A stretch of 51,511 bases of DNA from an uncultured Erysipelotrichaceae bacterium. GTDB lineage: Bacteria; Bacillota_I; Bacilli_A; RFN20; CAG-826. Both the position numbers and the translations under genes were made by a program. Location of the stretch: positions 1-51,511 of the forward strand of contig ONFU01000004.1 in the NCBI GenBank assembly GCA_900317165.1, read 5' to 3'. The notes under the pieces are model-generated. The model was not told the origin of the DNA. It saw nothing but the letters and a program-made list of their open reading frames with translations, and made no database searches. This document shows positions 34,767 to 49,413 of the stretch, in pieces (within the stretch, counting starts at the first letter, position 1; each line of letters begins with the position of its first letter).

Positions 34767-36332
34767 TTATTTGAGGATATAACCACTGAGAATGGCAAGC
34801 TTCGAAGTCATTTCCTGCTTTCTTCCATCCTTATAGGTAAGACGGTAATAGTTTTGGCCATCGCGCTTGAAACGTTCGATCTTCTCGATACCCCTTCTTG
34901 CAAGGTTATCCGTATTGAAGGCCTTGCCGTCTTCTGGGAATGGAGTGACTTCGCCATCGTCTCCTTTGACGGAAGCAAGGCGGGCAAAGCCTTTGGTCAA
35001 AAGCATCTTCTTGTTGATGTCATAGGATAATCCGTTGACGGAGATGCGGTAGATCTTCCTGAAAATCGAGGGGGAACGCTTGATGTATTCGACGCCCATA
35101 TCCGAAAGTTCCTTCGCGGAAAGGAATTCGATGTTATCGCCAGGATATGGTTCATCAAGCGTGATACTGACGGCTTTTTCGATTTTCTTGACTAGTCCGA
35201 GTTCCACTAGGCGATCAAAGGTCACGCTTTCGGTGACCCCTTCCTTAATTAAGGAATAGGAATGGACGGAACCTAGTTCTTCCTTATGGAAGCCTTCATA
35301 ACCCTTGGATTTGAAGACGCTTTCCCCTAAGAGGACGCCTTTGGTGGTATCTTCTTCCCAAAGGTTGAAATCAAAATAAGGTGCTTCTTCTTTTTCGACT
35401 TCCTCATCTTCATGGTATTCGCCTTCGAAAGAGGCTTTGTCTTTTAGGATTGCGATAACTTGCTCAATGGTCGGACGCTTCTTGTAATCAAGCTCAGTCA
35501 TCCCCATGAGCAAGGTATAGAAATCGACCTTATGCTTGGAACCGATTTGCATATGGGCGGCCTTATGAAAGGAGAATTCCTTGCCATAAAGCAAGGCGTT
35601 ACCGACGTCCCTTGCCCCTGTTACGGAAGGAAGCTCGCCAAAGAGGATATGATGGATGGTGATGGCAAGAGAGAAGATATCGCTAGCCTTGGTGATGGAT
35701 TTCTCATCATAGCCATCCTCGCCTTCGATATAACCAATCGCTTCAGGAGGCTGATATCCTTCGGTGCCCCCAAGGCTTTCATAATCGGGGACGTTCCCAT
35801 CGATAAAGGAATTGTCGAAATCCAAAAGCAAGGGGATGTAGGTTGACCCTTCTTTGACGAAACCGAAGTTCTGCGGTTTGAGGTCTCCGTGGATTACATC
35901 GAGGGCGTGTATCGTTTTTATGTCTTCCGCCATTGCAACGGCAAGGGCGATTTTGGAGGCGGTAGTCGGCAAAAGAAGCTTATCGAAACCAATCAACCCT
36001 TCGATAAAGGGGGTGACCGTGACGAAATAATTGCTCTCATCGACGAAATGGTCGACCTCTGGGACTATGTGGTTTTTGCTAACGGTCAAGGAAGCGAATT
36101 TCTTCTTGATCGCGGTTTGCTTATCGCGGACCTTCTTGAATTCCACGAGCTGAAGGTCATAGCTGGCTTTGGGGAGTTTTGAGGAAGGAAAACGCACGGA
36201 GATGGAGCGTTTAAGGAAATACCGGTTGCTTCCCTTTTTGGCGGTGACGAAAGTTCCGTTACCGGTCGTTTCCCAGTTTATGCCAACGCTAGAAAGCCAT
36301 TTGGGTTCGATACTATAGCCATGGTAATCCAT
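34767..36332 (-). CDS. Ser/Thr protein kinase with C-terminal repeats
   Basis: A 521-residue soluble kinase. Visible parts are a glycine-rich loop (TGNGTF), Lys41 in YFLKR, the catalytic loop HGDLKPQN (148-155; a non-RD form with Gly for Arg), DFD at 171-173 in place of DFG, GGTEGYQPPE and DIFSLAITIHHILFG. After residue 330 there is an acidic linker and then about three degenerate repeats that pair a short helix with a charged strand (LVELGLVKKIE, LSDMGVEYIKR, LARRGIEKIER). There is no membrane segment, unlike the PASTA kinases of Firmicutes. AAGGAGG precedes the ATG. A terminator separates it from the vWA gene upstream. Confidence 0.88.
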   Translation of the reverse strand: MDYHGYSIEPKWLSSVGINWETTGNGTFVTAKKGSNRYFLKRSISVRFPSSKLPKASYDLQLVEFKKVRDKQTAIKKKFASLTVSKNHIVPEVDHFVDESNYFVTVTPFIEGLIGFDKLLLPTTASKIALAVAMAEDIKTIHALDVIHGDLKPQNFGFVKEGSTYIPLLLDFDNSFIDGNVPDYESLGGTEGYQPPEAIGYIEGEDGYDEKSITKASDIFSLAITIHHILFGELPSVTGARDVGNALLYGKEFSFHKAAHMQIGSKHKVDFYTLLMGMTELDYKKRPTIEQVIAILKDKASFEGEYHEDEEVEKEEAPYFDFNLWEEDTTKGVLLGESVFKSKGYEGFHKEELGSVHSYSLIKEGVTESVTFDRLVELGLVKKIEKAVSITLDEPYPGDNIEFLSAKELSDMGVEYIKRSPSIFRKIYRISVNGLSYDINKKMLLTKGFARLASVKGDDGEVTPFPEDGKAFNTDNLARRGIEKIERFKRDGQNYYRLTYKDGRKQEMTSKLAILSGYILK

Positions 36333-37257: not shown

Positions 37258-38964
37258 ATGAAAAAGAATCACCTATCCCTAATCGTTCCATTGCTCCTCC
37301 TATTGCCGATTTCCCATGTCATCCATGTGGGTTTGCTTGAAGCAAAACCAGTGTCCGCCGGATCTAGTTCCTATACGGGGGCCTCTCTTCCGACGACCAT
37401 CGATTTGAATGATGTGAGTATCGAGAAGGTCCGCGCTTATTACGCCCCTCTTGAAGGCAAGGATTATTCCGGGAACGATTTGCTTAAGGCCTTGAAGCCG
37501 ATTCTTTCTTCCGGTCAGCAGCATTATAGCTACGATACGGGCTCCAATATTTGGAAGGCCTACGAAATCACCGATAGGGATTGGAGCAAATCCCCGGCAA
37601 ACGCCACCATCGACGGAACTTTCGACCCCGAGAAGAATATCATCACGGGCTATAAATACGGTTCTTCCGTTTCTAACCCAGGGAATAACAACCCCTATCT
37701 CCGTCTTCTATATAGAAACGACGGGGAAACCGATGGTGATATCCAAGCCTGGGGACCCCATGGAGGAAATAACGGGAACGGCATCGATAGGGAACACGTC
37801 TGGCCCAAATCCAGGGGTTTCGACTCCGGGAATGATGGAAACTATGGGGCTAGAGGCGACCTCCATCATTTGATGGCCGCAGACCATACGGTCAATTCGA
37901 ATTACCACAATAACCTCCCTTATGCCTTTATCGACATGAACAAGAGCTTTAAGGATGCCGGGAGCGATTATAGCTACGATGACGGCAACCTCACCGGGCT
38001 TTCCCTTAACGTGAGTTCCTCGGTCAAGGTCTTCGAACCACAAGACCGCGATAAAGGGGATATCGCTAGGGCCTGCTTCTATATGGTCGCCAGATATAAC
38101 AACATCTCCGGTGATGATGACACGATAGATTCAGGCAATCCTAACCTCACCCTTGACGATACTTTGAGCACAGCGACCGAATCCTCAACCGCAAGCAAAG
38201 CCGTTTCCTTAGGCGTTTTACGCGATCTTTTAGCCTGGCATCGCCTTGACCCAGTCGACGATTTCGAAAGGCATCGTAACGACTTGCTCTACCTTAATTA
38301 CACGAAAAACCGCAACCCATTCATCGATTATCCAAGTTGGGTCGATGCCATTTGGGGTGGCGTCCTCTTGGGCTCTGATAAGCGCACCATCACCTTTAGG
38401 GATGAGACCCCAATAGGCAAAGCCAGCCCATCCAAAGACTCCGTATATGGCCAATACCCTGGTGAAGAGGTTTCCCCGATCGCCTCGATTTCCATAGAAG
38501 GGGCCAAAACCTCCTTTGAGGTTGGTGATGCCTTCAGTTTTGGCGGAAAGGTCATCGGCAAAGCCGAGGATAATTCCACGAGGGAAGTCACCTTGGAATG
38601 CACTTTCTCCGGTTATGACATGTCCAAAGCCGGCGATTATCAGGTGACCGTCACCCATACCCCGTCCGGGAAGAGCGCCTCCTATACCATCAAGGTAGTT
38701 GAAAAAGCCGCTCCTTCTTCTAGCGAGCAGCCTTCTTCCAGCGGTTCTTCGACCCCTTCGGTCGATCCTAAACCTTCCCCCGCAGACGCCGTCAAGAACA
38801 TTCCTCTCCCCATTCTTATTGGAATAGGCGCAGGGGCCATCGTCGTCATCATTCTTTTGATAATCATCTTCACCAAACTTTCCAAAAAGCAAAAGAAGGC
38901 CGTCACCAAAGCCGTCAAGAAAACGGTGAAGAGCGCTTCGAAATCCTCAAAGAAAAAGAAATAA
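37258..38964 (+). CDS. Membrane-anchored extracellular endonuclease I
   Basis: A 568-residue secreted nuclease. A hydrophobic signal (residues 6-25) is followed by an EndoI domain to about residue 375, with IDREHVWPKS (His180), GDLHHLMAADHTVNSNYHNN and RNPFIDYPSWV. Next come an Ig-like domain (about 400-480), a Ser/Pro linker, a membrane helix (PLPILIGIGAGAIVVIILLI) and a Lys-rich cytoplasmic tail. The enzyme is thus held at the cell surface by its C-terminus and should digest external DNA. It is related to the partial nuclease at the left end of the window. The ribosome site (AAGGC) is weak. It converges on the methyltransferase gene with a 7-nt gap. Confidence 0.9.
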   Translation: MKKNHLSLIVPLLLLLPISHVIHVGLLEAKPVSAGSSSYTGASLPTTIDLNDVSIEKVRAYYAPLEGKDYSGNDLLKALKPILSSGQQHYSYDTGSNIWKAYEITDRDWSKSPANATIDGTFDPEKNIITGYKYGSSVSNPGNNNPYLRLLYRNDGETDGDIQAWGPHGGNNGNGIDREHVWPKSRGFDSGNDGNYGARGDLHHLMAADHTVNSNYHNNLPYAFIDMNKSFKDAGSDYSYDDGNLTGLSLNVSSSVKVFEPQDRDKGDIARACFYMVARYNNISGDDDTIDSGNPNLTLDDTLSTATESSTASKAVSLGVLRDLLAWHRLDPVDDFERHRNDLLYLNYTKNRNPFIDYPSWVDAIWGGVLLGSDKRTITFRDETPIGKASPSKDSVYGQYPGEEVSPIASISIEGAKTSFEVGDAFSFGGKVIGKAEDNSTREVTLECTFSGYDMSKAGDYQVTVTHTPSGKSASYTIKVVEKAAPSSSEQPSSSGSSTPSVDPKPSPADAVKNIPLPILIGIGAGAIVVIILLIIIFTKLSKKQKKAVTKAVKKTVKSASKSSKKKK

Positions 38965-41054: not shown

Positions 41055-41092
41055 ATAAAAAGAGGGCATTTTCCTCTAAAAGGAAACGCCCT
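41055..41092 (-). terminator. Terminator at the end of the clpP-to-wHTH operon
   Basis: On the minus strand AGGGCGTTTCC pairs with GGAAAATGCCCT, with one G-T pair and a bulged A, followed by CTTTTTATT. It overlaps the TAG stop of the winged-helix gene and separates that operon from the M32 gene. Confidence 0.8.
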
Positions 41093-41480
41093 AAGGGATA
41101 GGGATGATTTCGGCTTTGATCCTTTTTAGGTGGGGACGCTTCTTCATCTTGTCGTAAGAAGAAAGGAATTTCTCCGCTTCGGGATAGCCTACCTCTTCGA
41201 TTAAGAAGAACCTCTCATTGTATCTTTCATTGAAAAACGATGTAACGTATGCCCTATTTTCCAAAGCGGTCAAAGCCCCGGAGACCGCCTTACGGCTAAC
41301 CACGGAATAGCAGCCAAACATCTTGAATTCGGAAAATTCCATATATTCCTCGCTTCCAAGAAGAAGCTTCCTGATGCCGGAATTGCATGGGCAAACGCCC
41401 TGCTCCTTCAATTCGAAAAGCAAGGACAATACCTTTAGCTGAAACTTATTGAGCTTCGCGGGCTTTCTTTTTCTAGCCAT
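41091..41480 (-). CDS. Winged-helix-like protein in the TraG-like ATPase operon
   Basis: A 129-residue basic protein. Helices around KLNKFQLKVLSLLFEL and SRKAVSGALTALENRAYV, followed by a beta hairpin (TSFFNERYNERFFLIEE), suggest a winged helix. Two Cys residues (CPC) lie near residues 34-36. Its start shares one base with the ATPase stop (TAATG), so it is translated with that gene. DNA binding or regulation of the operon is likely but not shown. I know no close family. Confidence 0.65.
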   Translation of the reverse strand: MARKRKPAKLNKFQLKVLSLLFELKEQGVCPCNSGIRKLLLGSEEYMEFSEFKMFGCYSVVSRKAVSGALTALENRAYVTSFFNERYNERFFLIEEVGYPEAEKFLSSYDKMKKRPHLKRIKAEIIPIP

Positions 41481-43051
41481 TAGAACAATCCATCGTAACG
41501 GCCGCGTTTGGTCGTTTGTTCCTCGTTCACGCTATTTCCATCGCCATAAGTCTGGATAAGTTGCGGATAAGGCATATTGGCAACGTTCTTCACGACGTTG
41601 AAATAGACGATCTTCCCTGAAGTTGTCGGAAGCTCAAGGGGCTCGCCACCCACGAATTGCTCATAACGGGAGATATCGGGAAGGAAAGTCATGTAAGGCT
41701 TCGAACGGGAGATGAGGATAAGGGCTTCAGCCCCTCCTTCTTCGCCCCAAGCCTTCTTGAGGTTAGTAAGTTCAAAGAAGGAAATAAGGGGTTCGCTTCC
41801 AGGAATCTTGGTATAGGTACCGACCATAGTCTGAACTTGCTGAATAAGATCGTTTTCCTTACTTGCAAGGTAAACCCAGTTAAGGCAGTTGGTCTTGATG
41901 GTTTCGGCCTCATTCCCGTAATTGATCTTGAGCTGGTTATCGCTTTGGACGACCAGGTAGAAACGGACGTTGCGGCTTCTACCCGCGGTGATCATCGAAG
42001 CCATATCGGAAATGCGCGGGATGTTCGCGAATTCATCGAGGAGGAAATTGAGCCTTCTTGGAAGGGCGCCACCACATTTGAAGGCGTCTTCGATGGCCGC
42101 GGAATAAAGTTGCTTGATAAAGGAAGCGATGAAGAAATGGAAGGTTGTCGATTCATCAGGAACCAAAACGAAGACCGCGACTTTCTTCTTGGGGTCTTTG
42201 AAGGCATGGATATCGATGGTGCTACGCGCGGAAATCTTCTGCAAAGACTTAGAGGAAACGAATGGTTGGAGTCCGCTAGAGACCAAACCGAGGATGCCGC
42301 TCATGGTATTGGGGGCGTTGCAAACGGTGGTCTCCATATGCTGACGGATGGAATTGCTTGGAGGGAGTTTGGTCACGAAATCCCTTAAGACGGAGTCGCT
42401 GCTACTTCCGCCTCCTCCTCTAGTGAAGGAAACGAAGGAAAGGACGCTAGCCATGTTGCATTCTTCGACCTTCTTGGAGCCGCGAATTACCGTTTCGACA
42501 CAGCCTTCGATGAATTGTTTCGCCGCGGCTGGCCAGAAGATATCGTTCGTGGTCTTCATATGAGGATCCATCAAGGAAGCGACGAAATCCATGGCCCGTT
42601 TCAAGGATTCCTCCGTGTTGCCTTCCTGATAAAGGCGGAAGCATTCATCAAGGGGATTCCAGGAATCCGAACGGGACATGTCACGAAGATTGAGGACCTT
42701 GACCTCATATCCTTTGCTCTTAAGGAAGGAACTAGAGGCATCGTAAATCTCGCCTTTTGGGTCGGTGATGACCATGTTCTCGCCCGCTAATCCAAGGGTA
42801 AAGACGGTTGGCATAATGAATAGCCTCGTCTTCATCGAACCAGTCGAGCCTAGGATGAGGGTATGGTAATCGCCATCATCGACATAGGCTTCCTTGGTAT
42901 CGGAGATGAAGGCCGCGCCGCCATGGTTAAGCTCGATATCCTTGGTGAGGTCGACGCGGTTGAGGATCGACTTGATTTCCTCTTCGGAGGCGAAACGGTT
43001 GAGGAAACTCCTATCGCCCGTATATTTTCTGAATCTATAGCTCTTGCTCAT
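41480..43051 (-). CDS. TraG/VirD4-like ATPase lacking a membrane anchor
   Basis: A 523-residue P-loop ATPase of the type IV coupling-protein kind. Walker A is GSTGSMKT (68-75), with Met where Gly is usual; VITDPKGEIYD is at 94-104; Walker B LLDEFANIPRISD begins at 336; VVQSDNQL follows near 367. Such ATPases normally have two N-terminal membrane helices and pump DNA or protein into a secretion channel. This one begins directly with a soluble, charged N-terminus. No relaxase, VirB4 ATPase or pilus gene is in the window. It lies 2 nt after the 290-residue gene and is coupled to the winged-helix gene. The cargo, if any, is unknown. Confidence 0.85.
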   Translation of the reverse strand: MSKSYRFRKYTGDRSFLNRFASEEEIKSILNRVDLTKDIELNHGGAAFISDTKEAYVDDGDYHTLILGSTGSMKTRLFIMPTVFTLGLAGENMVITDPKGEIYDASSSFLKSKGYEVKVLNLRDMSRSDSWNPLDECFRLYQEGNTEESLKRAMDFVASLMDPHMKTTNDIFWPAAAKQFIEGCVETVIRGSKKVEECNMASVLSFVSFTRGGGGSSSDSVLRDFVTKLPPSNSIRQHMETTVCNAPNTMSGILGLVSSGLQPFVSSKSLQKISARSTIDIHAFKDPKKKVAVFVLVPDESTTFHFFIASFIKQLYSAAIEDAFKCGGALPRRLNFLLDEFANIPRISDMASMITAGRSRNVRFYLVVQSDNQLKINYGNEAETIKTNCLNWVYLASKENDLIQQVQTMVGTYTKIPGSEPLISFFELTNLKKAWGEEGGAEALILISRSKPYMTFLPDISRYEQFVGGEPLELPTTSGKIVYFNVVKNVANMPYPQLIQTYGDGNSVNEEQTTKRGRYDGLF

Positions 43052-43053
43052 AT

Positions 43054-43926
43054 CTATTCCCCCACGAGTCCCATGTAGTAACGTTTCTTATCGACGAAAT
43101 CTAGGAGCCATTTGCCTCCTTCGAGGAATGGCTTAAGGGCTTCCTTGGTAACGGTAGTCTTGAGTTCGCCCTCGTTCTTATAGGCGTTATAGACGATATC
43201 CTCGGCAAGTTGATGCATGGTCCAAGGGCCTTCATGGCCTTTGGTGTTCAAGATGGCCTTAAGGGTTGGGATAATCGCTTGTTTGGCCTCCTTATCCAAG
43301 GAAAAGCCAAAAGAGGAAAGTTCTTTCTCAAGGACATTCAAAGCGACTTTGGGGTCTTCGAGGACGAGGCGAAGCTTCTCTAGCCTCGTCTTGGTGATAA
43401 GAAGGCGGTAAGCCAAATCGGCCTTAGACGGGGACCCGCTCATATCGACATAGATCGCGAGGGTCCTTTCATCGACCTCCGACATATAATGAAGGAAATC
43501 GAGGAATTTCTTCTCGCTCGTCGCTGAACGCACCACCCAATCGGTGATATCGATGACGAGGATCCCGCTATAGGCGTGATTAAACCTCGCAAGGTATTTC
43601 TCGACCGCATCGTAAAGGGCGGTGAAGGCCGGAAAATCGGGGGCATTCGGCATCGAATAATCAAGGCTAAGCTCATAATGCCTTACCGGTCCTGAGAATT
43701 TCATCAACCCGTAATGGTCAAGAAGTTCCTCAAGAGATAAAAGGATCGTTTCGAAGTCATAGCCTTCGTTAGTGGAAAGGAAGAGGTTAGGCAAAACCAA
43801 AGAACCGCCGGAAGCGAGCTTCTTTTCCCCGATCCTCTCCAAGGTCGTCGCGAGGTCTTGAAGGCTTTCAAACCCCGGCTCCTTCGCTAAGGCTAGGAGC
43901 TTGTTTTCGAATTTTCGTTCAATCAT
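43054..43926 (-). CDS. Unknown 290-residue protein of the TraG-like operon
   Basis: A soluble protein with no motif I recognise. The middle (about residues 110-185) looks alpha/beta, with strands such as YSGILVIDITDWVV and RTLAIYVDMSGS; the C-terminal third is helical and ends in a winged-helix-like stretch (MHQLAEDIVYNAYKNEGELKTTVTKEALKPFL). I chose the second ATG, at 43926, because GGGAGG lies 6 nt before it while the first ATG directly abuts that site. It overlaps the end of the 1192-residue gene by 8 nt. The close coupling suggests a complex with the ATPase or the large protein. Confidence 0.7.
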   Translation of the reverse strand: MIERKFENKLLALAKEPGFESLQDLATTLERIGEKKLASGGSLVLPNLFLSTNEGYDFETILLSLEELLDHYGLMKFSGPVRHYELSLDYSMPNAPDFPAFTALYDAVEKYLARFNHAYSGILVIDITDWVVRSATSEKKFLDFLHYMSEVDERTLAIYVDMSGSPSKADLAYRLLITKTRLEKLRLVLEDPKVALNVLEKELSSFGFSLDKEAKQAIIPTLKAILNTKGHEGPWTMHQLAEDIVYNAYKNEGELKTTVTKEALKPFLEGGKWLLDFVDKKRYYMGLVGE

Positions 43927-46900
43927 CGTCATCCTCCCGTAATTGGATATTCTCTAATAGTTGATTAATTCTTGCTGGCGATTCCTCAAGGAAATAGTCA
44001 TCTTTGTGACGGACATCCTTATAGAAGATATATAAATCGCCAACTAAGTAATCCTCCGAATCCTCGGATGGGGTCGCTATCGTGTATGTTCGACCGAAGC
44101 CGTATATCTTCCCTACCTCGAGGAACCTAACTTTTTTCTTACCGAATTCATAAAAGAATTTCTCATTATCGCGATGGGTTAAGGTAAACGAATTGATAAG
44201 GTCGCTTTGGTCGATTTCGCCTAGAGCGCTACAGGCTTTATAGAAAACGGGGTAATCGGGATTCCTATATGAAGGCTCAATCCTTCTCGCGTTTATCGGT
44301 ACCTCGCGGACACACACTTTTTTCGCGGCCATGGCAATCTGATTCCATTGTTGTGGGGCCATCGCAAAGGCGAAATCCCCTAAAGCGTTTAGCGCGTTAT
44401 GTTCTTCTATGGACCCAAGCCTAAACGCTTCGAATTCGCCCCTAAGAGAAGCGAAGAAAAGCGACTTTTCGAAGCCAGTCAAAGGAAGGAGGATGTCCGT
44501 AAACCGATAATAATAGGCACCCATGCAAGAAGGGAAATCGTTCAAGCGGTATGGGGCGGCCTCCTCGATTTGAAGATAGGCGCTTTCGATTTTGCAAATA
44601 AGCTCGAATATTTGGTTGTCCTCGATTATCTTTCCTAAATCCTCGTCTTCAAGGCAAAGCAAGCAATGGAGCAAGGCCGAGAAATAGGAAGAAAGGACGG
44701 TGCTATCAAGCGCGGTTCCATTCTTAAACGAATTGAAGACATCGGCTGAGACGGGGAGTTTGGAAACGCCAAGGTTTTCTTCCTTAAGTAGTCCCGCTTC
44801 CTTGAATTTATGGGCAATGAAGCGGCTTGCGATATTAGAGAAAGGATAAACCGCGGTTAAGGAAAGTAAGCCCTCCTTATCCTTATCAAAAGAAGCGAAG
44901 GCTTGTTTAAACGCCTCAATCCCGTTTGTTCCTTGATCGGAATGGATGAAACGCCCATTTTCGATAAAGGTTTTTTCATCGAATGAGGATGCGCCGTCAA
45001 GGAGGTTGACAAGGTTTCTTTCATCAGCCAAAAGGATACCCGCGAACAAAGGGGAGAGGATGATATTTGGGTATTCTTTCTTCAATTTGATGTAACGGGG
45101 TTCCTCTTCGCTTAAACAGGATCCTAGGAAAGAAGATTCCTCAAGGTTTGACGACCTTTCGCCAGAATCCAAAAGGGTCGCTACTTCATCTATCAGTTCT
45201 TTGGTGACGTCAAGGCCCTTTTCTCCGATTTCCTGATTCAAGGAAAGCATATCGAGAATAGCAACGGCCTCGCCGCGAGGATCAAGAAGCTCGAGTTGCT
45301 CCTTGACGGAAAGACTGAGGAAGGCCTTATCTAAACCAAGGATATTCCAAGCCTCCATCCTCAGATAGGGGAAATCCGTTTTCCTTGAAATGTCATAACT
45401 ATACAAAGCCGCCCTCACCTTTTGGAGGTTTTCGAGTTTGTTGAGTTCTTTATCGATAAAAGGCAAGACGCGGCATAGCCTTAATCCCAATCTATAGGAG
45501 ACGTTCGCCCATTGGAAACGGAAGGTCTTCCCTTTGAATCCTTCCCCATCATCCATATATTCAGTATTCAAGGCGTTCAATAATTCGTTCGGGGAATGGA
45601 AAGAGGAGGCCTCCAAAACCAAGAAGCCCATACCATCTTCTCCTTCGATCCTTAAGATATCGTTAATTCCGATGCCTTTTATCGACTCATCCTTTTCGCC
45701 CAAGATGAGGAATGTTTGGGTAAATGGATTGACCTCCATTTTGTTTCTCCATAAAGAAGAAGGAATATGGATTTCCTCTTTTTTATCGAAAAATAGATGC
45801 AGGCCCCTCCTATTTGCCTCATAGACGAAAGTGGAGAATTCGTTTTGGGAAAGGCTATATTCCTCCACTACTTCTTTGACGTTGATTTCCTTTGATTCTC
45901 TAGCCTTATCGAAAGCCTCTTGGTAATTGGTCTTTTTGATGTCATCGAGAAGGCCATAATCAAAGAGGAAGGCCAACCCCATGCAGAAATCAGAGAAGAC
46001 GATATCCTTCTCGCCAATTTTATCGTAACCGTTGATGTCTTTAGGCGCGAAGGATTTCACAAGCTGATCGAAAGGAACGAGGAGGTCGCTTTTCTTCTCC
46101 CAGTTTTCGAAATTGTAGAAAAAGTTCCTTAAGGCCCAACAATCATGTTCGAAGGAGGCGAACCTCTTCATCAAGCAATCCTTCGTGTAGCATTCCCTGA
46201 TTTCCCGATAAACAAGGTTGCCATCGACGTGTGATTTATTGGATAAAGCCGCGTGGACCAAGGGGCTACCGGATTTAGCGAATAAAGCAGAGGAAATATC
46301 CTCTATTGGGGAGGAATCCAAAACCTTCTTGTAGAGTAAGGGTGACCTAGAGGGAGCTAGATAATGGAAATCGTCGGAGAAACCGATATGGGGGATCGGC
46401 GATTCATGCCCACCCATAGGAATTGCGATATCTTGGATCGTCTTATCCCAGGTCCCTAGATAATAGGCGGCCTTCTCCATCATGGAATCCTTTGGCGAGA
46501 GGAAAAGGGAATCCGCGAATGGGCTTTGGAGGCCGATTACGGTGACTGGGAAGCCTAGTTCCTTGGAAAGCGATTCCTCCATATAGGCATAGGAGGTTGG
46601 ACGAGGGATAAGGATATAGAGCCTCCTCACCTCATCGATATACCTCATTTCGTTGAGGAAGTCCCATAAGCGGTTGTTCTCATCCGCTAAATAGACGACA
46701 ACATGGTCTTCTCTCATGTCGTCGCAATCGCCGATACGGAAGCGAATTAGCGAGGACATGTATTCGTTATGCTTTAAAGCCTCGAAATAACGATTGATGT
46801 TAAAAGTGAAGAAAACGTCCTCATCGACGAATAGATCCATCGGCTTATCGAAGCCCTTCATGGAGGAAGCGACACCCTTCATTACGTCAACGACATCCTC

Positions 46901-47497
46901 GTTGGCCCCGCAAATGTGGAAGGTCTCCCCATTAAATCCTCTTTCAAAACAGTCCTTGATTAAGGCTGATACGGTGAATTGGACCGCGGACCTACGGAAG
47001 ATATGGTATTTGATTCCAACTTTATTAACGATTTGCACATCGCTTGAATAATTCGGTTGCTCTTCCACGACATAGATATAGACGTTCGCGGTTTTTCTAA
47101 TCCTTGGGAGATTTCCGAGAATCATATCCCTCGCTTCTTTGGCTTCTTCGGTCTGAGGGGAAGGGAAGAAGACGATGGCTTCGTCTTTTTTGCTGACCCT
47201 CAATAGCCTGCCGAATTCCTCAAGAGGATAATTTTCCTCATTTCCTTCTTTGCATAAAGGAATGTATTCGGCGTCGAGGAGCCCTTCTTTGTCTATTTTG
47301 GCCAAGGACAAAAGGAACGGAAGTGCTTCCTCAGCCTCGCCGATAATGAAAATGTCGCGGTCTTTGGCTGCGCTTAAATCATAAAAACGCGTTTCTTCAA
47401 CATAGTTGAGTTCGTTGATGATAGCGTCTGCGCGGTCAGCCTCAAAATAGGCGTCGCCTTCATCGATATCAGCTGGGTTGAGGTGGAAATATCGCAT
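43919..47497 (-). CDS. Very large unknown protein (1192 residues) downstream of clpP
   Basis: A soluble protein with no signal peptide or clear membrane helix. The first 380 or so residues look like two or three alternating beta/alpha units of Rossmann type (RDIFIIGEAEEALPFLLSLA, ETFHICGANEDVVDVMKGVA, RRLYILIPRPTSYAY), somewhat like the RCK or TrkA-N units of ion-channel regulators. The middle and C-terminal parts are mostly helical and acidic, without known motifs, and the end is DDDD. It starts 3 nt after the clpP stop, with AAGGAT as ribosome site, and is followed by the 290-residue protein and the TraG-like ATPase. It is the core unknown of this operon. I assign no function. Confidence 0.7.
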   Translation of the reverse strand: MRYFHLNPADIDEGDAYFEADRADAIINELNYVEETRFYDLSAAKDRDIFIIGEAEEALPFLLSLAKIDKEGLLDAEYIPLCKEGNEENYPLEEFGRLLRVSKKDEAIVFFPSPQTEEAKEARDMILGNLPRIRKTANVYIYVVEEQPNYSSDVQIVNKVGIKYHIFRRSAVQFTVSALIKDCFERGFNGETFHICGANEDVVDVMKGVASSMKGFDKPMDLFVDEDVFFTFNINRYFEALKHNEYMSSLIRFRIGDCDDMREDHVVVYLADENNRLWDFLNEMRYIDEVRRLYILIPRPTSYAYMEESLSKELGFPVTVIGLQSPFADSLFLSPKDSMMEKAAYYLGTWDKTIQDIAIPMGGHESPIPHIGFSDDFHYLAPSRSPLLYKKVLDSSPIEDISSALFAKSGSPLVHAALSNKSHVDGNLVYREIRECYTKDCLMKRFASFEHDCWALRNFFYNFENWEKKSDLLVPFDQLVKSFAPKDINGYDKIGEKDIVFSDFCMGLAFLFDYGLLDDIKKTNYQEAFDKARESKEINVKEVVEEYSLSQNEFSTFVYEANRRGLHLFFDKKEEIHIPSSLWRNKMEVNPFTQTFLILGEKDESIKGIGINDILRIEGEDGMGFLVLEASSFHSPNELLNALNTEYMDDGEGFKGKTFRFQWANVSYRLGLRLCRVLPFIDKELNKLENLQKVRAALYSYDISRKTDFPYLRMEAWNILGLDKAFLSLSVKEQLELLDPRGEAVAILDMLSLNQEIGEKGLDVTKELIDEVATLLDSGERSSNLEESSFLGSCLSEEEPRYIKLKKEYPNIILSPLFAGILLADERNLVNLLDGASSFDEKTFIENGRFIHSDQGTNGIEAFKQAFASFDKDKEGLLSLTAVYPFSNIASRFIAHKFKEAGLLKEENLGVSKLPVSADVFNSFKNGTALDSTVLSSYFSALLHCLLCLEDEDLGKIIEDNQIFELICKIESAYLQIEEAAPYRLNDFPSCMGAYYYRFTDILLPLTGFEKSLFFASLRGEFEAFRLGSIEEHNALNALGDFAFAMAPQQWNQIAMAAKKVCVREVPINARRIEPSYRNPDYPVFYKACSALGEIDQSDLINSFTLTHRDNEKFFYEFGKKKVRFLEVGKIYGFGRTYTIATPSEDSEDYLVGDLYIFYKDVRHKDDYFLEESPARINQLLENIQLREDDDD

Positions 47498-47500
47498 GCT

Positions 47501-48097
47501 TTATCCTTCGACTTTGCCGGTTTTACCGCTTTGGATGACCTTATCGGCCAAACCCATCGCAATGGCTTCTTCGGGATCGAGGTAATTATCCTTTTCGCAA
47601 GCGATATGGATTTCATCGAGGCTCTTGCCGGAAGCGTCGGAAAGGATGGTCTCGAGTTTGCGTCTGGTGTTGCTCATCTCTTCGGCGATGCCGACGAGAT
47701 CGGTTTCCTTTAGCCCGGAGATGGAAGCGTTGCTCCAAGGTTGGTGAATCATAAGCTCGCTATGGGCGGTCATGTAACGGTGGCCTTTTTCGCCGGAAGC
47801 GAAGATGACAGCGGCCATTGAGGCGGCGATGCCATAGCAAACGGTGTAAATAGGCGATTTCACGAGGGCCATGTTATCGACAATCGTCAAACCAGCCGTG
47901 ACGGAACCGCCGCCGGAATTGATATAAAGATAGATGGGGTCATTGGATTGCTGGTCCATATGGCGGAGCAACAGCATGACTTTGAGGGCAAGGTCATCCG
48001 AAATCGCTTCGGCGATGACAATGTTCCTTTGGTTTTGAAATTCCTCCATTATCTCACCCGAAAGAATCGGGAACGACAAACCTTTGACTTCTTCCAT
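47501..48097 (-). CDS. clpP: ClpP-family serine protease
   Basis: A 198-residue ClpP-like peptidase. The catalytic triad is Ser93 in GIAASMAAV, His118 in MIHQPW and Asp170 in CEKDNYLDPEEA; YINSGGGSVTAG is also typical. The N-terminal 30 residues differ from the usual ClpP start. ClpP normally forms a barrel fed by a Clp ATPase, but no ClpX, ClpA or ClpC gene is nearby, and instead an unknown 1192-residue gene follows in the same operon. GGAAGG precedes the ATG. A TATAAA at 48142-48147 (minus strand) is a possible -10 box. Housekeeping ClpP or a second copy dedicated to this operon: the sequence alone does not decide. Confidence 0.88.
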   Translation of the reverse strand: MEEVKGLSFPILSGEIMEEFQNQRNIVIAEAISDDLALKVMLLLRHMDQQSNDPIYLYINSGGGSVTAGLTIVDNMALVKSPIYTVCYGIAASMAAVIFASGEKGHRYMTAHSELMIHQPWSNASISGLKETDLVGIAEEMSNTRRKLETILSDASGKSLDEIHIACEKDNYLDPEEAIAMGLADKVIQSGKTGKVEG

Positions 48098-48195
48098 TAT
48101 TGTTTACCTTCCTTCCGAACGGCTTTTTGTGTGTTATTAAGTTTATAGGTTTTCTTATACAAAGAAAAGGAAATCAGGAAGAAAAGCTCATAGTC

Positions 48196-48224
48196 TTCAA
48201 AAAGATGGGCCTAGAGGATATTAT
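48196..48224 (+). promoter_or_regulatory. Putative promoter of the TIR-Nudix pair
   Basis: TTCAAA (48196-48201) and TATTAT (48219-48224) are separated by 17 nt, matching consensus at 4 and 5 of 6 positions. Transcription would start near 48231, just before the GAGGAA ribosome site. Confidence 0.5.
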
Positions 48225-48243
48225 TATTTATCGAGGAACCAAC

Positions 48244-49413
48244 ATGATACGCGAAGTTGACTGGAAGAATAAGGAAATCGAGACGTTCATTTGCTATCGC
48301 AGCAGCGGCAAATGGGTGGGCGCGGCCATTTTGGCGGCCATGGAAAGAGAGAAGGAATGGGATTACGAAAGGGTTTGGTATTCCCAAAAGCAAGGGGCCG
48401 GCAACTACGTTTCCGATATCCCTCTCCTTTTAGGCTCCGCGAATAACGTCATCATCGTTTTCGTTAGGGGCTTCACCTACGATTTCTTCAAAGACGGCAA
48501 ATTCAACGAGAACTGTGTCACAGCGAAGGAGCTCGCGGCCATCGATAGAAGATACGATGAAATCAAAATCGTTCCTGTCTATATCGATAACTATGTGCCT
48601 GATGAATCGGAGATATCCACGATTGCCGATGCGATTTTGGCGATAAACGGCCCCCGTTATTTCCGCGATAAGGAAACAATCATGAAGTTCTGGGGCTACA
48701 AGAACCGCGTCGAGCTCGACTCCGAGAAAGTCGCTTCCGAAGCCGAGATGGATATGTGGCTAGACAAGAACCTCAAAAAGGAGCTTAGCCCAAAAATCAT
48801 CGCCCCCGTGGAGACGATTTCCTATTTCAAAAGCGATGATTACGATGATATGTTCCGTCAGCTTCTTCGCGATGAGAACAAATACCAGAACATGGCTTAT
48901 TTCGGATACGGCGGATCGGTATTCAAGAAAGACCTCTTCGGAGGGTCGATTAGGTATAACGACATCGTTTCCAAAAAATATAAGCATAAATCCATAAGGA
49001 TCCTTCTCCGTGACCCCGACATTGAGGAAATGGAAGAAAAAATCGATAACGCTAGACCGGAAGTCAAAAGGCCAAGGAACAAATCCGAAGGTATCCGCGA
49101 CCTTATCGACTACTACAGTAAGAACGATCCAGGCTTAGATATGGAGATAAGGTTCTACGAACACCACCCAATCCTTAAGGGTTGTATATTCTGCGACGCG
49201 GAATGGAATCCAAAAGTCGGGTTGATCAATATTGAATCCGCCTACGGGGAAAGATACCAAAAAAGCGGGGGAAGTCCTTTTAAGGGCGATGATTCGGACA
49301 TGATCTTCATCAACGCCGAAACAAAGGAAAACGGACAGGCTACCAAAATGCTTAAAGCCATCCTTTCACAGTTCAATTACGAATGGAATAAAGGGAAGAA
49401 GGCCATAAAATGA
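48244..49413 (+). CDS. TIR-domain protein with C-terminal sensor-like domain
   Basis: A 389-residue soluble protein. An N-terminal TIR domain (about residues 12-125) shows the fold in order: ETFICYRSSGKWVGAAIL, a YSQKQGAGNYVSDIP loop, NNVIIVFV, and CVTAKEL, where Glu96 matches the catalytic Glu of NAD-cleaving TIR enzymes, then IVPVYID. After a linker the C-terminal half (about 200-385) contains IRILLRDPDIEEM and MEIRFYEHHPILKGCIF, resembling ligand- or damage-sensing domains fused to bacterial immune effectors; its exact family is not known to me. I chose ATG at 48244 with GAGGAA upstream; the frame is open back to 48100, but the extra residues do not look like protein. It overlaps the Nudix gene by 4 nt and is divergent from clpP. 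Confidence 0.82.
   Translation: MIREVDWKNKEIETFICYRSSGKWVGAAILAAMEREKEWDYERVWYSQKQGAGNYVSDIPLLLGSANNVIIVFVRGFTYDFFKDGKFNENCVTAKELAAIDRRYDEIKIVPVYIDNYVPDESEISTIADAILAINGPRYFRDKETIMKFWGYKNRVELDSEKVASEAEMDMWLDKNLKKELSPKIIAPVETISYFKSDDYDDMFRQLLRDENKYQNMAYFGYGGSVFKKDLFGGSIRYNDIVSKKYKHKSIRILLRDPDIEEMEEKIDNARPEVKRPRNKSEGIRDLIDYYSKNDPGLDMEIRFYEHHPILKGCIFCDAEWNPKVGLINIESAYGERYQKSGGSPFKGDDSDMIFINAETKENGQATKMLKAILSQFNYEWNKGKKAIK

Follow-up and report, generated by a model that had tools for sequence, protein, structure and literature searches.

A candidate ClpP protease module with an anchorless VirD4-like ATPase and a putative docking adaptor in small-genome gut Bacilli

We describe a five-gene operon in contig ONFU01000004.1 from an uncultured Erysipelotrichaceae bacterium (assembly GCA_900317165.1), analyzed here over its full length of 51,511 nucleotides. 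This stretch, hereafter the window, spans the entire contig (51.5 kb); the draft genome to which it belongs totals 1.66 Mb and is 84% complete. The operon encodes a ClpP peptidase, a large soluble protein (P1192), a putative adaptor (P292), an anchorless VirD4/TraG-like ATPase, and a small terminal protein (Table 1). Our preferred reading, to which we assign a probability of roughly 55%, is that these genes specify a protease in which a VirD4-type motor drives ClpP via an adaptor with an IGF-type tail, with some form of signal control. That ClpP, adaptor, and motor would work as one machine is the more secure part, which the comparative genomics makes likely. A nucleotide-gated role in defense is put forward more tentatively. 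So is the full scheme, in which a VirD4-motor ClpP protease would have been built at least twice and would be controlled, as an immune system, by RyR-type sensors of TIR-made ADP-ribose signals. We infer the complex itself, substrate threading, nucleotide gating, and defense rather than read them from the sequence.

Distribution of the subtype I module

The taxonomic order was searched with the ATPase, and the neighborhoods were read. This revealed a P292 homolog directly upstream of the ATPase gene in 12 genomes of family f1, the family of the window genome (small-genome gut Bacilli). ClpP was located at the module in 11/12 of them, the ClpPs of genome G200 lying at a second locus. Profile searches added four distant loci of this kind (subtype I), namely, the IMG/VR contig L055 and three loci from genomes of another family (L072, L073, and L074), all with the gene order P292-ATPase-ClpP. 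The window order differs, with ClpP first and P1192 between ClpP and P292. Conservation of gene order had been proposed beforehand as a test by the first-pass annotation, and the genes proved not to be scattered: P292 and ATPase are adjacent at every subtype I locus, and ClpP accompanies them at the 11/12 family and 4/4 distant loci. G200 also carries two subtype I ATPase genes in an insertion between NifU-like and M32 peptidase genes (L035 5373-14450), with no ClpP on that contig.

The module ClpP and its missing classical partners

The catalytic triad of the window ClpP is invariant across seven module ClpPs, and the operon gene is the sole ClpP found in the window genome. ClpP was present in 12/12 family f1 genomes with the module versus 0/11 without it (Fisher p=7e-7, the genomes being related and not independent); some of the 11 module-less genomes without any ClpP are 100% complete. 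No ClpX scored over the cut-off in any family f1 genome tested or in the single-contig genome G573, in a search in which control genomes and G415/G503 did. Eight module genomes were checked for AAA_2 proteins, and each had one strong, ClpB-like match, any further matches being marginal. In ClpC and ClpE the IGF loop is carried by an insertion after sensor 1, and none of these eight ClpB-like proteins has an insertion there. Nor was an HSP100 unfoldase with an IGF loop detected in these eight genomes, bearing in mind the draft state of the window genome. The module ClpP is hence without a detectable HSP100 unfoldase able to serve it. The family f1 lineage as a whole appears to be without ClpX and, outside the module, without ClpP.

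A housekeeping explanation would have lineages that had lost ClpXP and ClpCP regain ClpP plus a substitute motor for general protein quality control, with no immune function. It is favored by the module ClpP being the only ClpP in most carriers and by the constant chromosomal position seen in three genomes of the genus. We consider it quite unlikely given that subtype I is patchily spread (12 genomes of the order), that most family f1 genomes live without ClpP, that the large partner genes are variable, and that RyR, TIR, CHAT, and STAND genes lie nearby.

A VirD4-like ATPase without a membrane anchor

The window ATPase passes the cut-off of the CD1115-family model NF045973 (269.7 bits versus 250) and has a Walker B motif, LLDEF (D339, E340), with no transmembrane helix. 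The PF02534 and NF045973 matches and the missing helix bear out its description in the first-pass annotation as a coupling-protein-type ATPase lacking a membrane anchor. The Walker A motif placed at residues 68-75 is indeed there (GSTGSMKT; window 42827-42850, minus strand), in a noncanonical form with Met in the place of the invariant Gly, as in all 11 aligned family orthologs. The motif reads ASSGMKKS in L055 and ASSGMMKS in L072, and it is canonical in L073, L074, and the subtype II ATPases described below. N-terminal Kyte-Doolittle hydrophobic peaks are ≤0.5 in the module ATPases (the start of the L073 protein is uncertain), compared to 1.8 to 3.3 in the conjugative relatives, which mostly have a strong N-terminal anchor, with L058 reaching only 1.3.

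The score above a conjugation-family cut-off would fit the vestige of a conjugative element, or an ordinary coupling protein whose position next to clpP is accidental. Such an origin is highly improbable: module ATPases are anchorless while most conjugative relatives are anchored, the partner genes are conserved, and the chromosomal site is fixed. Moreover, no relaxase (PF03432) was found in seven module-carrying family f1 genomes, a search that included the window genome and did not extend to VirB4. The relaxase absence first seen in the window therefore holds for the whole draft genome, and a surrounding conjugative element, the contrary outcome named in advance, was not encountered. A conjugative or integrative element was rejected as a candidate on the same grounds (relaxase, anchor, and site). 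A phage or plasmid origin was also rejected, searches of phages, plasmids, and viral contigs having returned no match to P1192; L055 comes from a viral collection (IMG/VR), yet its genes look cellular.

P292, a candidate ClpP-docking adaptor

The P292 proteins of family f1 carry [MLIY]-G-[LF] within the last ten residues in 11/11 cases, the 11 being related and not independent. Examples are YYMGLVGE (window), LGLVG, LGLLGE, YGFKG, and IGLI. The looser pattern [ILVMY]G[LFI] occurs in 3 to 6% of shuffled proteins and in 40/486 background open reading frames. ClpP-binding ATPases dock via such tripeptides, as with the VGF of ClpE, which enters the H-sites (PMC13125188), and we propose the P292 tail as a putative ClpP-docking element.

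P292, which is 292 rather than the originally reported 290 residues long, lacks a Walker A motif, and its profile matches a protein confirmed to be the DNA polymerase III delta subunit, HolA (E 7.7e-8 in a small set, about 1e-5 per genome). HolA has an AAA+ fold with no working ATPase site. An AlphaFold model built from three sequences had a mean predicted confidence (pLDDT) of 41, too poor to judge the fold; comparison of P292 against the PDB gave no match. A Pfam MEDS match (0.19) was discarded as chance, as were single weak matches of other members.

A second, probably separately evolved module

The extra ClpPs of G200 led to a second set of genes (subtype II). It encodes a 302-residue adaptor with no relation to P292, a VirD4-like ATPase that lacks an anchor and has the canonical Walker A GTTGSGKT, and two ClpP-type proteins, one inactive and ClpP-like, the other an active ClpP. 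A search with the 302-residue protein found subtype II in seven further genomes; the L111 contig ends inside the ATPase gene, and the L113 contig breaks off within the adaptor. All 8/8 subtype II adaptors end in an [ILMF]-G-F tail (KKIGFKIGE, KKLGFKVGK, TKMGFNLGGK, SRIGFIL, TRIGFSI, KKLGFNVKGGK, QIGFKVRR, and KGFGFRIDEE), a pattern present in 0.4 to 0.6% of shuffles. This is the canonical ClpP-docking tripeptide by its residues, and docking is predicted. The inactive ClpP-like proteins, which lack the catalytic Ser, are encoded at L107 11459-12004, L108 11605-12141, L109 11483-12025, L110 14130-14696, L112 6676-7218, L113 6134-6667, and L094 9994-10536. Their pairing with an active ClpP suggests a mixed ClpP ring.

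In a maximum-likelihood tree, the subtype I and subtype II ATPases form two well-supported clades with anchored conjugative proteins between them. A single clade for both was rejected (approximately unbiased test, p-AU 0.0014; the grouping was fixed before the tree, and long branches exist). The combination of ClpP with a VirD4-like ATPase lacking an anchor and an adaptor with a G-[FL] tail thus probably arose twice, and this double origin is the strongest argument for a functional association.

It also bears on another alternative, in which the ATPase acts on DNA as a HerA-like pump or helicase in defense, while P292 switches on ClpP, a separate effector, with no unfolding step, so that degradation is limited to proteins that are small or already unfolded. 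In its favor, DNA is what this ATPase family moves, nuclease effectors are partners of HerA in defense (PMC11291478), there is a weak mad8 match, and the Walker A Met may mean a weak motor. Against these stand the coupling of the ATPase to ClpP in both subtypes, which probably evolved separately, and the fact that a nuclease or DNA-binding gene is never a constant partner, and we regard this alternative as unlikely.

RyR domains and TIR genes at the module loci

P1192 has an 87% identical counterpart in G109 and a distant 1,270-residue relative in L035. The segment at residues 390-515 is part of a divergent family that also occurs in proteins of L035, L037, L039, L040, and L044, and for whose profile RyR structures are the best PDB matches (E 0.012 without L044, 4.2e-4 with it). 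A His-x-x-Trp motif is invariant in this family (H451 and W454 in P1192). RyR-domain proteins bind cyclic ADP-ribose (cADPR) immune signals, and in RyDEP two residues with the same spacing, H75 and W78, contact ribose and adenine (PMC13232231).

RyR domains also occur at other loci. In L036, L037, and L039, the large partners begin with four hydrophobic helices, contain an RCK-like stretch (by eye), and end in a RyR domain, the latter scoring 3e-4 to 3e-3 in Pfam (below the cut-off) and 2.4e-13 by profile against PDB RyR. Subtype II loci have stand-alone RyR domains (3.3e-26 and 2.9e-36). PF02026 was found in 8/42 genomes, all of them module carriers, with 8/8 matches located at the module, and in 0/20 module-less family f1 genomes (p 0.001). 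Proteins joining membrane helices to a C-terminal RyR domain are encoded at L036 2618-5641, L037 3332-7936, L039 1833-6440, and L110 15244-17628; it is possible that these large proteins are bacterial RyR-gated channels.

TIR genes, including some for TIR-STAND proteins, flank three loci, with three such genes at L055, three at L107, and one at L110. Two unusual fusions, TIR-LRR-CutA1 and TIR-methyltransferase, were observed there (L055 14595-16193 and L107 4618-5970). Other neighbors include a CHAT-TPR gene near the L072 module, a PP2C-like gene near L041 (just below the cut-off), and vWA genes near L039, where the region downstream of the subtype I module encodes a BspA-like repeat protein (by eye) and, after it, has four vWA-type genes (L039 9909-18169). 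When the operon proteins and the divergent neighbor were scanned with PADLOC, no Thoeris model matched, and mad8 alone was hit (1e-6), with no other mad genes.

Operon layout and genomic setting

As the first-pass annotation had noted, the five genes are tightly packed on the minus strand (41091-48097). In the 5'-to-3' direction, ClpP is followed by P1192 after 3 nt, P1192 overlaps P292 by 14 nt, the ATPase gene begins 2 nt after P292, and the 129-residue gene overlaps the ATPase gene by 1 nt. The single terminator said to close the operon has a matching stem at 41077-41061, of a pattern not enriched in the region over shuffles (12 versus 9.8, standard deviation 3.5). Neither Pfam nor NCBIfam gave a meaningful family match for P1192, P292, or the 129-residue protein. 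The 129-residue protein has a 130-residue relative, 29% identical, in the same position in L035; the winged-helix fold suggested for it found no confirmation in a family match.

A near-identical operon is present in the metagenome-assembled genome L004, probably the same record as G109:C29. In G000, G109, and G200, NifU-like and M32 peptidase genes lie on either side of the operon site, which in G200 has different contents plus an extra peptidase gene. The divergent neighbor at 48100-49413 also occurs in G109 and is absent between the ATPase and NifU genes in G200. Its true start probably lies downstream of 48100, as in G109. Its membership of the system is uncertain and its TIR identity a lead only. 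Farther away in the window are genes for a protein with a protein kinase domain (34767-36332, minus strand; PF00069 1.3e-16) and for an endonuclease I that carries a Big_3 domain and, by eye, a C-terminal membrane helix (37258-38964, plus strand).

Table 1. Positions of the operon genes and adjoining features in the window
Feature	Position	Strand	Evidence or remarks
ClpP peptidase, 198 aa (amino acids)	47501-48097	minus	Pfam PF00574 1.3e-50; triad S93, H118, D170
P1192, soluble, 1192 aa; divergent RyR-like domain at about 390-515	43919-47497	minus	Proposed sensor/switch
P292, putative adaptor, 292 aa; AAA+-like without Walker A; tail YYMGLVGE	43054-43932	minus	11 orthologs
Anchorless VirD4/TraG-like ATPase, 523 aa; proposed motor	41480-43051	minus	PF02534 1.8e-41; NF045973 4.3e-80
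129-aa protein, last operon gene; possible regulator	41091-41480	minus	No family match
Terminator-like stem-loop and T run beyond the last stop codon	41061-41077	minus	Pattern scan
Divergent neighbor, weakly TIR-like N-terminal region	48100-49413	plus	hhalign 0.008, hmmsearch 0.021

Proposed mechanism

In the mechanism we favor, ClpP would be the proteolytic chamber of a layered ATP-dependent protease, and P292 would dock on the ClpP face by its C-terminal Met-Gly-Leu tail, like the IGF loops of ClpX and ClpC. A ring of the anchorless VirD4-type ATPase would stack on P292 and unfold substrate or thread it into ClpP. P1192, through its RyR-like domain, is the likely switch: it would sense an ADP-ribose-type nucleotide from TIR-type enzymes, the signal probably being NAD derived, and turn proteolysis on, while at other loci this gating by ADP-ribose-type signals may fall to RyR membrane proteins. 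Proteolysis would then probably serve an anti-phage or cell-suicide response. The first-pass annotation had envisaged a cytosolic machine that either feeds substrates or processes DNA; feeding ClpP is now the best-supported interpretation, and DNA processing is without support.

Several observations weigh against this mechanism. ATPase activity is not assured with Met in place of Gly in the subtype I Walker A, and we know of no VirD4-type motor that unfolds proteins for a peptidase. The G-[LF] tail is missing from the distant P292s of L055 and L072. On the sensor side, the P1192 segment and its relatives have no Pfam RyR (PF02026) match above threshold, and the residue equivalent to RyDEP H100 is missing from the P1192 domain (by eye). 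As to the signal, the window neighbor is TIR-like only weakly (E 0.008 by hhalign, 0.021 by hmmsearch), with no Pfam TIR match, and six carriers, including L038 and L041 to L043, have no detectable RyR or TIR.

Comparison with known systems

To our knowledge, all known ATP-driven ClpP partners are HSP100-type AAA+ unfoldases. No PADLOC system or curated family describes the module, and we found no published account of ClpP with VirD4, HerA, TIR, or RyR in a search that excluded subscription papers and most preprints. If correct, our reading would represent a new architecture for regulated proteolysis, in which a VirD4-type motor and a separate IGF-tailed adaptor serve ClpP, and would mean that secretion motors can be adapted to unfold proteins. 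The recurrent linkage with RyR and TIR would also give a bacterial setting, with a proteolytic readout, to the old question of RyR-type domains reading cyclic ADP-ribose signals.

The module resembles ClpXP, ClpCP, and ClpEP in having a ClpP chamber with an intact triad and a partner with a candidate [ILVM]-G-[FL] docking motif. It differs from them in that the proposed motor is of VirD4 type rather than an HSP100 AAA+ protein and in that the motif lies near the C terminus of a distinct putative adaptor rather than on a loop of the ATPase. With the VirD4/TraG coupling proteins (CD1115, NF045973) it shares the ATPase domain, the Walker B, and, for the window protein, a score above the cut-off; unlike them, the module has no anchor, no relaxase or, in the window, type IV channel gene, a Walker A Met in subtype I, and a ClpP operon. 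HerA-DUF4297 and HerA-Sir2 likewise combine an ATPase of the FtsK/HerA superfamily with an effector enzyme, whereas here the effector would be a compartmental peptidase, a putative adaptor intervenes, and the ATPase is VirD4-like, not HerA. The TIR genes beside several loci recall Thoeris, as do the RyR domains, a domain type that in phages binds cADPR-type signals; the module, however, lacks a ThsA-type effector and would act through a protease, and the signal is putative. Finally, in common with RyDEP and other RyR repeat-domain proteins (PF02026), subtype II loci and some subtype I loci have RyR domains that match RyR entries in Pfam or the PDB, and P1192 keeps the His-x-x-Trp. In contrast to RyDEP, the module RyR domains are host encoded and some are fused to membrane helices, and that of P1192 is divergent and below the Pfam threshold. 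The parts come from known families; the machine they would form appears not to be of a known kind.
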